This document shows positions 55,435 through 60,546 of a stretch of DNA of 64,000 nt, in pieces; position 1 is the first letter of the stretch, and every line of letters starts with the position of its first letter. The DNA comes from Acidobacteriota bacterium (GTDB lineage: Bacteria; Acidobacteriota; Holophagae; Acanthopleuribacterales; Acanthopleuribacteraceae). The notes under the pieces were generated by a model. That model had not been told where the DNA came from, searched no databases, and worked only from the letters and a program-made list of their open reading frames with translations. The stretch covers positions 248,001 to 312,000 of the forward strand of contig JAGQSC010000021.1 of NCBI GenBank assembly GCA_020439745.1, read 5' to 3'. The position numbers were made by a program, and so were the translations under genes.

Positions 55435-56490
55435 TCATTGCTGTGTTTTGACGATATTTACGTCACCGTTCACGGTGCGAATCACGACGCGGTGACGGCC
55501 TGTTACTGTCTGACCCGAGGCACGAATCACTTTGTGCCGGGTACCTTCAGTGCTTTGCTTCAGTGCGAATTCTGATGTGATCTTGCAGGGCTTTCGGTCG
55601 TTGGTTTGTTTGATCTCAATGTCAAACTCACCTGAGAACCCTGCCGGTAGGTGCACATTGATGTCGCCGCCCTTGGAATCCAGATCAACATCCCGCTCAC
55701 CGTCGTCGGGATCACCGACCATGATAATGGTGATGTTACCGCCCATGGTGTGTGCGGTTGCATAGCCGTCTACGGCATCGACGCGAATGTTGCCGCCCTT
55801 GGTCTCCACATCCACGAATTTGGCCGACCCGATGTTGATATTGCCACCCATGGTTTCACCGATCAGACCTGTGGGTGCTTCCACCACCTTGATGTTGCCA
55901 CCATACGTCTTCACCTTAACGGGTTCCACGCGACCATCGATGGGTGAATTTGGGTTGTCTACGTTGATGTTACCGCCCATGGTTTCGCAGTCCACTAGAC
56001 CCGGCGTATTAGACAGGCTGATATTTCCGCCCATGGTCTTGACATGCCCACTGACTTGGGAATGATCGATACCGATGTTGCCGCCCATGGTCTTCACGGC
56101 CAGCTCACCACGAAGCTGGGTGAGTTGCACATTTCCGCCCATGGTGGCGGCCTCAATGCGACCTTCGATTTGTTCGATCTGCAGATTGCCGCCGGTTGTC
56201 TTGACGTCAATGTTGGCCTGGTTGGGTAGCCTGATGGTCACAGCCAGTTTGTGACGCTTATTGCGTGGCAGTGTGGCGACCACACTCAAACCGTCTTTGG
56301 TTTGGTTGACATCCATGACCACGTCTTCCGCACCGTGGTGCTCCAACGACAGGTCATTGCGTGACTCACCGATAATGGTCAGGTTTCCCCCTTGCTCCAG
56401 TTCCACATACAGGGTTTGACCTGCGCTGAATGCATAGCTTTGTGATTGCTCCGCAAAACTGAGCGAAGCGAGGATAAGTACGAAAATCAT
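55435..56490 (-). CDS. Secreted DUF4097-type repeat protein
   Basis: The 351-residue protein has a signal peptide (MIFVLILASLSFA) and a parallel beta-helix-like body. At least nine turns of about 17-20 residues repeat 'TMGGN(I/V)' or 'TKGGN', typical of DUF4097 adhesin-like domains. The same turn appears in the DNA as repeats of GTTGCCGCCCATGGT on the + strand. Such proteins often accompany sigma/anti-sigma or envelope-stress systems. It is the third gene of the sigma factor operon, 9 bases behind the anti-sigma gene. Confidence 0.85.
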   Translation of the reverse strand: MIFVLILASLSFAEQSQSYAFSAGQTLYVELEQGGNLTIIGESRNDLSLEHHGAEDVVMDVNQTKDGLSVVATLPRNKRHKLAVTIRLPNQANIDVKTTGGNLQIEQIEGRIEAATMGGNVQLTQLRGELAVKTMGGNIGIDHSQVSGHVKTMGGNISLSNTPGLVDCETMGGNINVDNPNSPIDGRVEPVKVKTYGGNIKVVEAPTGLIGETMGGNINIGSAKFVDVETKGGNIRVDAVDGYATAHTMGGNITIIMVGDPDDGERDVDLDSKGGDINVHLPAGFSGEFDIEIKQTNDRKPCKITSEFALKQSTEGTRHKVIRASGQTVTGRHRVVIRTVNGDVNIVKTQQ

Positions 56491-56499
56491 GGTTGCTCC

Positions 56500-57303
56500 T
56501 TAGTAGGTTGTTTTTTGGGATACCCGATAGAGGGCGGGCAGGTCGGCGGAGTCGGGACCCTTGTCCAACATCTGCTCTGAATAATCGCGGCCCAGGTACG
56601 TCATGGCATTCAGCTTCAAACTGGTGTTGGCATCACTGGTCAACAAAGCCACAAATGCTTCGCTGATGGCCTGGTCCATCTCCTGGCCAGCCAGGATTTC
56701 TGATGCCTTGAGGCGAACCGAGATTTCGGGGTCGTTATTCATGGCGTAAATCAGTGCATCGCGCACTTCTGGATCAAAGACCTCGTGCGCGGCATCCAAT
56801 GCTTCCAACCGTTGATAAAGCGAAGCCGGTTGCACCATGGACTGAGCCAGGATGTGACCCACGCGTGGGTCCGACGGTTCGGCCACCAGAGACTCGCGGT
56901 GAGTAATGTCGTAACTCAAAGTCACACGTCCGTCAGCCAACGTGTTCACGGCGACGTTGGCATAACTAGCCAGCGATTCGCCGAGAACCGACGTTTCTCC
57001 CCCACTGCGTCCGCTCATAAAACCAAGCACGATTCCGGCCGCCAAAGCGGCTGGTAACCAAAGTGGATGAATTCGGGAAGGAGGGGCCGTGTTCAGTTGG
57101 CGAAGCACGCGACTGCGCATCGCTTGAAAGGAGGTCTCGTCGGGTACGTGGCCCATGTCGATGGTGTCGAAACGGTGGTGCAATTCAAGGACTGCATGAC
57201 ACGTCGCACACTGAGCGACATGTTCTTGCAATTCTGCAGTCATACCCGTGCCATCGGCGATAATCTGTTCCAATTGGTCTTGAATGGATAAGCAGTCTTT
57301 CAT
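56500..57303 (-). CDS. Membrane anti-sigma factor with zinc finger and HEAT-like repeats
   Basis: The 267-residue protein has a ZAS-type motif (His28, Cys32, Cys35 in HVAQCATC) in its cytoplasmic N-terminus, one membrane helix (about 83-100; LWLPAALAAGIVLGFMSG), and an outer part with HEAT-like helical repeats (VRDALIYAMNNDPEISVRLKA, FVALLTSDANTSLKLNAM). It overlaps the ECF sigma gene by 4 bases, so the sigma factor is probably its partner. The HEAT-like sensor part is unusual. Confidence 0.85.
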   Translation of the reverse strand: MKDCLSIQDQLEQIIADGTGMTAELQEHVAQCATCHAVLELHHRFDTIDMGHVPDETSFQAMRSRVLRQLNTAPPSRIHPLWLPAALAAGIVLGFMSGRSGGETSVLGESLASYANVAVNTLADGRVTLSYDITHRESLVAEPSDPRVGHILAQSMVQPASLYQRLEALDAAHEVFDPEVRDALIYAMNNDPEISVRLKASEILAGQEMDQAISEAFVALLTSDANTSLKLNAMTYLGRDYSEQMLDKGPDSADLPALYRVSQKTTY

Positions 57304-57797
57304 GGTACCTCCGCCATCTTGCGCATGCTGCGATAAAGAATGTTCTTGACCACCGTTTCATGGCATTCCAATACCTCGGCGATCTCTTTCACGGCATAAC
57401 CTTCTATGTATTTCAAAACCACGGCCAGCCGGTGTTTGGGGTGGAGTTTGTCCAGGTACTGGCCGAGCATATGGCGGTCCAGTGGGTGGTCTTCGGACGG
57501 TAACTGTTCTTCGGCTAGCGCTACATGAGGTTCGGCACGTTGGCTACGCGAGAAGCTGACACTCGAGTTGTAGGTGACGCGCATCAACCAGGATTTGAAT
57601 TGGTCAGGTTGCTGCACACTGTGGAGTTTCTCGAAGGCTGCCAGAAACACGTTCTGCGTGATGTCCATGGCATCTTCGGCTTGGCGTGTGTAGTTAAGCG
57701 CCACGGAATAAACGAGTTTTTGGTATTTGCGCATCAGTTCATCAAAGGCACTCATGTCACCAGTCAGGGTTTTCTCGATCAGTTGGGCGTCCAACAC
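57300..57797 (-). CDS. ECF-type RNA polymerase sigma factor
   Basis: The 165-residue protein has sigma region 2 (about 15-80; FDELMRKYQKLVYSVALNY, DAMDITQNVFLAAFEKL) and region 4 (about 110-160; HPKHRLAVVLKYIEGYAVKEIAEVL). It lacks regions 1 and 3, so it is an ECF sigma of the RpoE/SigW type. The start is GTG behind GAGAGGATG. Translation is coupled to its anti-sigma factor. The leader sequence is almost identical to that of the divergent Rieske-ThDP gene. Confidence 0.93.
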   Translation of the reverse strand: MLDAQLIEKTLTGDMSAFDELMRKYQKLVYSVALNYTRQAEDAMDITQNVFLAAFEKLHSVQQPDQFKSWLMRVTYNSSVSFSRSQRAEPHVALAEEQLPSEDHPLDRHMLGQYLDKLHPKHRLAVVLKYIEGYAVKEIAEVLECHETVVKNILYRSMRKMAEVP

Positions 57798-57799
57798 CA

Positions 57800-57960
57800 G
57801 TTCATCCTCTCAACTGTTTGCACCTATACAGACGCATCTCAGCCCAAAAAGTAAGCACAAGCGCAAACTTTCCCAAGAAAAAGCCCTCGAGAAAGCTAGA
57901 TCACATCACTCGGAGTTACCCTGCTATGATGGCCTTTTCCAACACAGTTGAGAGGTGAAC
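57800..57960. promoter_or_regulatory. Divergent control region with inverted leader repeat
   Basis: The minus-strand leader of the sigma gene (57819-57800) reads AAACAGTTGAGAGGATGAAC. The plus-strand leader of the Rieske-ThDP gene (57941-57960) reads AACACAGTTGAGAGGTGAAC. They share 12 plus 5 identical bases with a one-base indel and cover both ribosome-binding sites. TATGAT at 57925-57930 could be a -10 box for the plus gene. Shared control of the two operons is possible. Confidence 0.45.
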
Positions 57961-57961
57961 C

Positions 57962-59890
57962 ATGGTTGTTTGGCACCGAATCTTGGATTTGGATGAGCTA
58001 TCTGATGGTCGCGTCACGGTGGTCACGGTGGAAAATCGAAGTTTTGCCATCACCAAATTTGAAGGTGTGTACGCTGCCTTGGACAATCGTTGTCCGCATC
58101 AGGGCGGACCCTTGGGTGAAGGTTCCATTGAACAGGGGTGGCTGCGGTGCCCTTGGCATGGGTGGGATTTTCACCCCACTACGGGAAAGCCGCCCGGAGG
58201 TTATGACGACGGGGTGTGCACGTTTCCCATCGAGGAACGGACCGATGGTGTGTATTTGGGCCTGCGCCCCACACCCAAACCTGCGCGCACGGTTTCGGAC
58301 GTCATGATTGAGACGATGGTGAATTGGGGCGTGACCCACGTGTTTGGCATGGTGGGCCACTCCAATTTGGGGGTCGCCGATGCCATGCGTCGGCAGCAAG
58401 AGCAGGGAAGGTTGACCTTTATTGGCATTCGGCATGAGGGAGCGGCCTCTTTTGCAGCCTCTGCCTATGCCAAGCTCACCGGAAAACCGGCGGCCTGTTT
58501 TGCCATTGCAGGGCCCGGAGCCACAAATCTGTTAACTGGATTGTGGGACGCAAAAGTGGATCGCGCGCCTATCCTCGCCTTGACAGGCCAAGTAGATACC
58601 CAAGTTTTGGGGCCCGGTGCCTTCCAGGAAGTGGATTTGAGCCAAGCCTTTCAGGGGGTGGCCGTATGGAGCCAGACGGTGCTGGCCACCTCCAGACATG
58701 CGGAGCTAATGAATCTCGCTTTGAAGAACGCCATCCTGAAGAGGGATGTAGCCCATCTGATTTTTCCCAACGAGGTGCAGCAGATTGCGGCCGAGGACGT
58801 GTCTGCATCCGATCCCAAAGGACGGATAACACCGCTCACCATTCGCCCACCGGAGCCAGCATTCGAGGATGCACTGCAAGCCTTAGCGCATGCCAAACGA
58901 CCCGTCACCATTGTCGGGCACGGCACTCGATTCGATATGGACGGCGTCATGACGCTCGCAGAACGTCTGAATGCGCCGGTCATTACCACATTCAAAGGCA
59001 AGGGCTTGGTTTCGGATCACCATCCATTGGGTTGTGGGGTGCTCGGTCGAAGCGGGACACCGATCGCCTCATGGTTCATGAACGAAGCCGATCTGTTAAT
59101 GGTATTTGGGGCTTCCTTTTCAAACCACACTGGGATTACGCCCAAGAAACCCATCATCCAAGTGGACTACGATCCCATGGCTTTGGGTAAGTTCCACAAG
59201 GTTGCCTATCCCATTTGGGGCGAAATCGGTGAAACAGCCAAGCTTTTTGCCGATCGGCTCACAAACAAGGAAACGGTGGATCAGCGAGGGGAAGTTGCGG
59301 ATCGGTGGTCCATTTGGCGGCGCGAGAAATTGCGACGTGCAGGGGACGATCGCGGAAAAGGTCTCAATTCGGCGTTTCTATTCGCTCAGTTGACCGAGGC
59401 AGTGAATGCAGACGCCGTGATTGCCGTAGATGTGGGCAACAACACCTATTCATTTGGCCGGTACTTTGAGTGTGATGCCCAGTCGGTATTGATGTCAGGT
59501 TACCTGGGTTCCATTGGTTTTGGTCTACCTGCCGCCATGGGTGCTTGGTGTGCGTCACCAAATCGGCAAATAGTCTCTATTTCGGGTGATGGTGGGTTCG
59601 GCCAGTACATGGCTGAACTAACCACGGCTGTGAAATACGGCATGAACATCACCCATGTGCTTTTGAATAACGGTGAACTGGGCAAAATCTCGAAAGAGCA
59701 ACGCGCGGACCAACTGGATGTTTGGCAGACGCAGTTGCACAACCCCAACTTCGCCAGCTATGCAGAGAACTGCGGTGCGCTGGGTATCCGTGTCCAAAAC
59801 CGCAGCGAGCTTAAATCCGCATTGCGTCGTGCACTAGACCACCATGGCCCGGCACTGGTGGAAGTCATCACCGATGCCATGCTGATTTGA
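57962..59890 (+). CDS. Rieske domain fused to a thiamine-diphosphate-dependent enzyme
   Basis: The 642-residue protein starts with a Rieske [2Fe-2S] ferredoxin domain (1-105; Cys44-x-His46 in CPHQGG and Cys63-x-x-His66 in CPWHGW). A full enzyme of the acetolactate synthase/pyruvate oxidase family follows: PYR domain with catalytic Glu159 (IRHEGAASFAASAYAK), a middle domain (VTIVGHGTR), and a PP domain with GDGGFGQYMAELTTAVKYG and LNNGELGKIS for ThDP and Mg. A Rieske cluster suggests redox chemistry, such as oxidative decarboxylation of a 2-oxo acid with electron transfer. Substrate and acceptor are unknown. It is divergent from the sigma factor operon. Confidence 0.88.
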   Translation: MVVWHRILDLDELSDGRVTVVTVENRSFAITKFEGVYAALDNRCPHQGGPLGEGSIEQGWLRCPWHGWDFHPTTGKPPGGYDDGVCTFPIEERTDGVYLGLRPTPKPARTVSDVMIETMVNWGVTHVFGMVGHSNLGVADAMRRQQEQGRLTFIGIRHEGAASFAASAYAKLTGKPAACFAIAGPGATNLLTGLWDAKVDRAPILALTGQVDTQVLGPGAFQEVDLSQAFQGVAVWSQTVLATSRHAELMNLALKNAILKRDVAHLIFPNEVQQIAAEDVSASDPKGRITPLTIRPPEPAFEDALQALAHAKRPVTIVGHGTRFDMDGVMTLAERLNAPVITTFKGKGLVSDHHPLGCGVLGRSGTPIASWFMNEADLLMVFGASFSNHTGITPKKPIIQVDYDPMALGKFHKVAYPIWGEIGETAKLFADRLTNKETVDQRGEVADRWSIWRREKLRRAGDDRGKGLNSAFLFAQLTEAVNADAVIAVDVGNNTYSFGRYFECDAQSVLMSGYLGSIGFGLPAAMGAWCASPNRQIVSISGDGGFGQYMAELTTAVKYGMNITHVLLNNGELGKISKEQRADQLDVWQTQLHNPNFASYAENCGALGIRVQNRSELKSALRRALDHHGPALVEVITDAMLI

Positions 59891-59907: not shown

Positions 59908-60546
59908 TCACACGTTGCCAATAATCGCAAAATCCGTGATCAATGCGATGGGTTTGTGGTCACCCCCAATGGCGAAATATGAGGCGTAGAAGCCATCGCC
60001 ATAACCTGACGAAAATGCAACGATGTTGCCGGCCGATTCGGGATCTGGCTTGAAATTAGCCCAAGACCAGGTATGCCGGTAGGTCTCGTCGAGGAACTCA
60101 ATAATGTCTAAGAAATAGCGATCGTTTTCTCCCATGCGTTTTGTGAGTGCGTGCGATGTGTCGATATCCATGAAACATCCAGTTCCTGCATCGACACCAT
60201 ATCCAAACATCTCATCATCTTGTAGATCTTCGACGAGCTGACCATTGATGACTGCCATCTCCCAATGATTGATCGGACCTTGAGTGAAATCGACACGTGC
60301 AAAAGCTACCCGCTCGTCGCCCCCTTCGAGGATCGCTATGGCGAGCGTGACAGGATACTCGCCATTTGGGACACGTCGCGTAAATGGTTGTGGGTCTGGA
60401 CAAACGAGCGGATCTGAAGCGGCTATTTGGCCTGACGTTATGATGAGATTGCCGATGGATTCGATCCGAAAGGAAACGGGTGCGTTTGGATCTACTGCGT
60501 TCAAAAAGACTTGCGTAACTAGTTTTTCATCGATCATGTGGGCCAA
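59908..60546 (-). CDS. DUF4241 protein
   Basis: The 212-residue soluble protein matches the DUF4241 pattern: GNLIITSGQIAASDPL, FTRRVPNGEYPVTLAIA, WEMAVINGQ, FGYGVDAGTGCFMD and late VAFSSGYGDGFYASYFA. The family is widespread and of unknown biochemical function; some members occur beside toxin-immunity genes. It is convergent with the Rieske-ThDP gene, 17 bases apart. Confidence 0.8.
   Translation of the reverse strand: MAHMIDEKLVTQVFLNAVDPNAPVSFRIESIGNLIITSGQIAASDPLVCPDPQPFTRRVPNGEYPVTLAIAILEGGDERVAFARVDFTQGPINHWEMAVINGQLVEDLQDDEMFGYGVDAGTGCFMDIDTSHALTKRMGENDRYFLDIIEFLDETYRHTWSWANFKPDPESAGNIVAFSSGYGDGFYASYFAIGGDHKPIALITDFAIIGNV

Follow-up and report, generated by a model that had tools for sequence, protein, structure and literature searches.

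Textbooks present the ThDP enzymes of the pyruvate oxidase (POX) and acetolactate synthase (ALS) superfamily as either flavin-dependent or non-redox. In a 64,000-nucleotide stretch of the 5.1-Mb genome of an Acidobacteriota bacterium (hereafter the window; contig JAGQSC010000021.1), one gene joins a core of this kind to a Rieske [2Fe-2S] domain, raising the question of what such a cluster does on the same chain as a ThDP enzyme.

Organization and distribution of the fusion gene

According to the list of open reading frames and the translation, the gene occupies positions 57962–59890 of the forward strand, on which all features of the protein given below also lie, and forms one unbroken frame of 642 aa. 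Direct reading of the sequence revealed a Shine–Dalgarno-like GAGAGGTG at 57950–57957 (+), ahead of the ATG, which would make a good ribosome-binding site. Pfam placed a Rieske domain of the dioxygenase-ferredoxin type at residues 4–76 (57971–58189; PF00355, E 4e-16), followed by the N-terminal, middle and C-terminal TPP_enzyme domains at residues 110–227 (58289–58642; PF02776), 302–426 (58865–59239; PF00205) and 490–635 (59429–59866; PF02775), with E values of 1e-31 to 1e-37. Between the Rieske and ThDP parts lies a variable linker (residues 101–109; 58262–58288), whose mean identity among relatives is 17% as against 65–82% in the flanking domains. The preliminary description had reported that both Rieske ligand pairs and all ThDP motifs were intact, and this was borne out: Cys44-Pro-His46 (58091–58099) and Cys63-Pro-Trp-His66 (58148–58159) are where they had been placed, the N-terminal domain contains the GHSN signature with His133, the catalytic-type Glu159 and Phe221-Gln222, and the C-terminal domain contains GDGGF...NN (residues 542–570). 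The four Rieske ligands, His133, Glu159, Phe221, Gln222, Lys575 and Glu579 did not vary in any of the 79 aligned sequences. The fusion itself is real, since the same head-to-tail arrangement recurs in relatives. Full-length fusion relatives in other genomes and collections ruled out both a reading frame arisen by chance and an assembly chimera.

Both flanking genes, encoding an ECF sigma factor (57300–57797) and an unannotated protein (59908–60546), are on the opposite strand, so that the fusion gene stands alone in the window. The sigma factor gene appears to form a single operon (55435–57797, −), upstream of the fusion gene, with a probable anti-sigma-type gene (56500–57303) and a gene whose DUF4097 product contains GGN repeats.

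Homologues sharing the fusion were readily found. Full-length copies, 54–76% identical, are spread over about 20 phyla of bacteria and also occur on megaplasmids of haloarchaea; copies from genomes of the same family are 70–76% identical, and those from about 20 other phyla 54–74%. At least 577 relatives were confirmed, from which we kept 80 loci of about 19 bacterial phyla, with 64–74% identity to the window fusion; the phyla include Cyanobacteriota, Pseudomonadota, Bacteroidota, Nitrospirota, Nitrospinota, Planctomycetota, Gemmatimonadota, Myxococcota and Verrucomicrobiota. Among 396 Acidobacteriota genomes, 20 carried the fusion and a twenty-first (G387) carried the rubredoxin form described below. 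Four haloarchaeal megaplasmids encode it at 62% identity, and a 55% identical copy lies on a mobilizable plasmid of Mycobacteroides abscessus (NC_021278.1, 15940–17841), with genes for a cation:proton antiporter and a flavodoxin-family protein nearby. PLSDB/RefSeq plasmid records label the protein only as "thiamine pyrophosphate-binding protein". In a phylogenetic tree the family formed a single clade, set off from its nearest relatives by a long stem (support 100/98), and no relative above 50% identity had a separate, unrelated Rieske part. Two Myxococcales copies (L096 and L137) contain frame breaks, seen as stops in simple translation, that may reflect sequencing error or decay, and a member from a Bacteroidota genome (L195 in G996) has one in-frame TGA within the match.

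No publication on a Rieske–ThDP fusion was found in the open-access literature searched, whether Rieske was paired with CDGSH or with pyruvate oxidase, glutamate synthase or acetolactate synthase. Sengupta et al. 2018 (PMC5859297) recorded CDGSH domains alongside Fer4_19, Glu_synthase and Rieske_2, an assortment that resembles the glutamate-synthase-like partner described below; the words thiamine and TPP are absent from that paper, and neither the Rieske–ThDP form nor its CDGSH-Fer4_19-CDGSH-Rieske–ThDP extension is described there. The family is widespread and apparently uncharacterised.

The ThDP core and the Rieske domain

The ThDP part has a complete N–M–C core with the catalytic Glu and the GDG...N motif. 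Its best-scoring models were those of pyruvate oxidase, although none of the pyruvate oxidase equivalog cutoffs was reached: PRK08611 gave 420 bits against a cutoff of 742, and the other models fell further short. The closest solved relatives were Escherichia coli PoxB and Lactobacillus plantarum POX (LpPOX). An AlphaFold2 model built from 53 family members spanned both domains with a mean pLDDT of 91.7 and a pTM of 0.87, and its top Foldseek matches were POX, the C-terminally truncated PoxB (3eya; TM 0.91, normalised to the target) and Corynebacterium glutamicum PQO, with acetolactate synthases close behind. With PoxB, LpPOX and PQO the fusion protein thus shares the whole ThDP core, the fold and the ThDP motifs, at 25–28% identity and below every NCBIfam cutoff. 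By alignment, Asp402 corresponds to PoxB Asp292 and Gly383 to PoxB Gly273, which we take to be FAD-touching residues, so that a FAD site is predicted in the middle domain. The equivalents of LpPOX Phe121 and Glu483 are also retained, the latter as Glu579 (59696–59698).

The active site nevertheless departs from that of POX in two places. Phe479 of LpPOX and Phe465 of PoxB are implicated in electron transfer from ThDP to FAD, whereas the fusion family has an invariant lysine at this position (Lys575; 59684–59686). In addition, His133 in the GHSN loop, beside the cofactor, stands in place of a Gly or Asp. Together these replacements suggest that the substrate or the chemistry may differ from those of POX. 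Both would make the surroundings of the predicted active site more positively charged, which may signal an altered relay, or else a substrate that is a dicarboxylate or bears a hydroxyl or sulfonate group. Nor does a flavin pocket in itself imply redox catalysis, since non-redox acetolactate synthases also bind FAD and oxalyl-CoA decarboxylase binds ADP in the same pocket.

A housekeeping acetolactate synthase was ruled out. The ALS large-subunit equivalog gave 304 bits against a cutoff of 538, and the sequence after the NN motif is LGKISKEQ in the fusion instead of the ALS-type G-M-V-R/x-Q-W. A separate contig of the same genome encodes an ALS-like homologue (L002; 31% identity) that reads LGMVRQWQ at this point.

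PoxB exposes a C-terminal peptide to reach the membrane quinone. By contrast, the fusion protein stops right after its C domain, at about PoxB residue 532; the membrane-binding peptide of PoxB and PQO is absent, and the chain carries an N-terminal Rieske domain. Pyruvate:ferredoxin oxidoreductase (PFOR), like related 2-oxoacid:ferredoxin oxidoreductases, is a ThDP enzyme that couples oxidative decarboxylation to one-electron export through Fe–S clusters (PMC5020499); its working principle is similar, but PFOR uses [4Fe-4S] clusters and CoA and has a different domain arrangement. We found no PFOR match in Pfam and no PFOR family among the best 25 NCBIfam matches. We regard the fusion as a variant among POX-type ThDP enzymes rather than a new kind of enzyme.

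When the Rieske domain was compared in isolation, its best solved matches were the ferredoxins of naphthalene dioxygenase and toluene-4-monooxygenase (T4MO). The CxH...CxxH ligand spacing in a Rieske fold is the same as in these soluble ferredoxins, which here are represented by a domain covalently joined to a ThDP enzyme. None of the extra disulfide cysteines of high-potential bc1-type Rieske proteins was present beside the ligands in CPHQGG...CPWHGW. The domain is therefore of the electron-shuttle kind.

Exchange of carrier domains and recurring partners

The N-terminal domain is not the same in all members of the family. In G387 (L152), rubredoxin (PF00301) replaces the Rieske domain on a ThDP core 58% identical to that of the window. 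A search for further rubredoxin-type copies among relatives of G387, in Acidobacteriota, in the phyla of L100 and L076, and in Planctomycetota and Bacteroidota yielded none beyond G387; it was during this search that another type turned up. Three genomes of KSB1/Calditrichota, the phylum of L076, encode proteins of about 870 aa in which a CDGSH-Fer4_19-CDGSH block precedes the Rieske domain (L171–L173). The ThDP core stays about 55–60% identical in the rubredoxin and CDGSH forms. The tree, which gives no placement for the rubredoxin form, nests the three CDGSH forms as a clade inside the Rieske forms, indicating that the block is a gain. That unrelated folds, all of them one-electron carriers, occur in the same place speaks more strongly than anything else for an N-terminal part that conducts electrons; on these sequence comparisons, the swapping of dissimilar carriers on one core argues strongly for a role in electron transfer.

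The commonest neighbour, present at 39 of the 80 loci, was a protein combining a Rieske domain with a glutamate-synthase domain (PF00355 + PF01645; hereafter Rieske–GltS). Its gene was located in the flanking sequence examined at each locus, in most cases immediately upstream of the fusion and on the same strand. The GltS-like part has an FMN domain and a C-x5-C-x4-C [3Fe-4S] motif, and has no glutaminase domain. Of 40 other genomes searched, 22 encoded Rieske–GltS elsewhere, two of these matches being cut by contig ends. Within Acidobacteriota, the Rieske-type partner was found in 12 of the 21 fusion genomes as against 5 of the 375 others (Fisher p 6e-14), or, counted by genus, in 9 of 12 as against 5 of 198 (Fisher p 2e-10, with kinship above the genus uncorrected). 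The window genome has its copy (L007; 136–1752, −) unlinked to the fusion gene. A further Rieske fusion of this genome (L006; 361–1977 on contig C26) consists of an N-terminal Rieske domain and about 430 residues of unmatched sequence; it was rejected as the GltS partner because its second domain is unidentified and the real partner is in L007.

The GltS protein adjoining the rubredoxin-type ThDP gene also carries rubredoxin, and the one adjoining a CDGSH-type ThDP gene (L185) carries CDGSH-Fer4_19-CDGSH. The matching is not absolute, since in L113 a Rieske–ThDP gene lies beside a CDGSH–GltS gene. The ThDP fusion occurs with no GltS partner in one Acidobacteriota genus (g79) and in several cyanobacteria, and GltS proteins with CDGSH occur in genomes with no match to the ThDP fusion, as in three Acidobacteriota loci (L199, L201 and L202) where two CDGSH domains are fused to the glutamate-synthase FMN domain.

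A third Rieske protein, in which a Ferric_reduct/MsrQ-like haem-b membrane domain is joined to a Rieske domain, was encoded near the ThDP gene at 9 loci. The window genome also encodes one, unlinked to the fusion gene (L004). Here the gene belongs to a three-gene unit (761–2894 on contig C51) encoding a small membrane-type protein, the MsrQ/Ferric_reduct-like protein with its C-terminal Rieske domain, and an unmatched protein of 260–310 aa; the same unit recurs near the Rieske–ThDP gene in other phyla. Other recurring neighbours were DUF5996, a Na+/H+ exchanger, TauE/SafE, FMN_red (in cyanobacteria) and carbonic anhydrase. Two CDGSH-type ThDP genes adjoin a gene for malic enzyme. As malic enzyme makes pyruvate, this slightly favours pyruvate as the substrate. 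TauE/SafE-family exporters are encoded near the ThDP gene or its GltS partner in both bacteria and haloarchaea (L152, 1655–2503; L126; L154–L156), a hint that would leave some room for a sulfonate.

Proposed reaction and alternatives

We consider it probable that the fusion protein is a soluble POX-type 2-oxoacid oxidative decarboxylase that passes electrons through FAD to its own Rieske cluster and from there to an external acceptor. In such a cycle, a 2-oxoacid, either pyruvate or a more polar relative, would add to ThDP and lose CO2, as is established for POX-type enzymes. The resulting carbanion/enamine would reduce the FAD predicted in the middle domain, FADH2 would pass its two electrons singly to the Rieske cluster within the same polypeptide, and the cluster would deliver them to an acceptor that is probably shared with the Rieske–GltS FMN enzyme and is perhaps the MsrQ-like haem-b/Rieske membrane protein. 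This reading follows from the POX-like family and fold, the conserved FAD-site positions, the shuttle-type Rieske domain and the carrier swaps, and from the linked Rieske–GltS gene with its matching carriers, the nearby membrane Rieske protein, the malic enzyme and the existence of a separate ALS-like protein. The one-electron exit through the Rieske cluster, which the preliminary description had proposed, gains support from the likeness to POX, PoxB and PQO, the ferredoxin-type Rieske domain, the replacement or extension of the carrier and the two Rieske-bearing redox neighbours. Carrier-borne electron transfer is thus well supported by comparison, whereas we infer the FAD, the direction in which electrons flow, and which substrate and acceptor are used.

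Two other readings would give the Rieske domain a different part. The protein might be a non-redox, acetolactate-synthase-like carboligase or decarboxylase whose Rieske domain serves as a sensor, of redox state or of iron, and carries no catalytic electrons. This would agree with the close kinship to acetolactate synthases, in which FAD is non-catalytic, and with the lysine in place of the POX relay phenylalanine; we regard it as improbable, because folds as unrelated as rubredoxin, CDGSH and Fer4_19 in the same place are easier to reconcile with electron transfer than with a dedicated sensor, the genome has a separate ALS-like homologue, and the neighbours bear the same carriers. Alternatively, electrons might enter through the Rieske cluster and drive the ThDP chemistry in reverse, as in reductive acylation or carboxylation or the reduction of O2 or peroxide. 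Rieske and rubredoxin domains do commonly deliver electrons, as in dioxygenase ferredoxins, the GltS partner counts formally as a reductase, and FMN_red-type proteins are neighbours in cyanobacteria. However, known POX-type enzymes run oxidatively and carriers of such potential are too weak for reductive carboxylation; we consider this the least probable reading.

A further alternative concerns the partner genes. The ThDP–Rieske and GltS–Rieske proteins might exchange electrons directly or share one dedicated carrier, in which case oxidation of a 2-oxoacid would power, or be joined to, a reductive amination of the glutamate-synthase kind that needs neither NAD(P)H nor a glutaminase. Their tight linkage and co-occurrence, the matching swaps of rubredoxin and CDGSH-Fer4_19-CDGSH modules, and the retention of the [3Fe-4S] motif in a GltS-like core without a glutaminase domain speak for such a pair. 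We nonetheless think it unlikely, given the mixed pair L113 and the occurrence of each protein without the other, and since both could merely use the same acceptor. In a broader and still doubtful proposal, to which we give slightly more weight, the ThDP–Rieske, GltS-like FMN/[3Fe-4S]–Rieske and haem-b–Rieske membrane proteins would form a dedicated system, in which interchangeable Fe–S plugs (Rieske, rubredoxin or CDGSH-Fer4_19-CDGSH) connect the oxidation of 2-oxoacids either with the membrane or with FMN chemistry of the amino-acid type, independently of NAD(P)H.

An Fe–S plug that shares the chain of the enzyme, and whose fold has been traded for others during evolution, would represent a new way of wiring a decarboxylase to one-electron chemistry, in a family whose many bacterial and haloarchaeal hosts are often marine. 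Sequenced cyanobacteria, such as Xenococcus sp. PCC 7305 (L079), and haloarchaea with the family bear names suggesting cultured strains, which would make it directly testable, and the enzyme might serve as a biocatalyst that oxidizes 2-oxoacids in coupling with an electrode or a mediator.

Finally, DUF5996 or a diverged form of it was encoded beside the fusion gene at 21–22 loci of several phyla (L093, 13266–14126; L119; L135; and others). This recurrence is a context clue for DUF5996, itself a family of unknown function.
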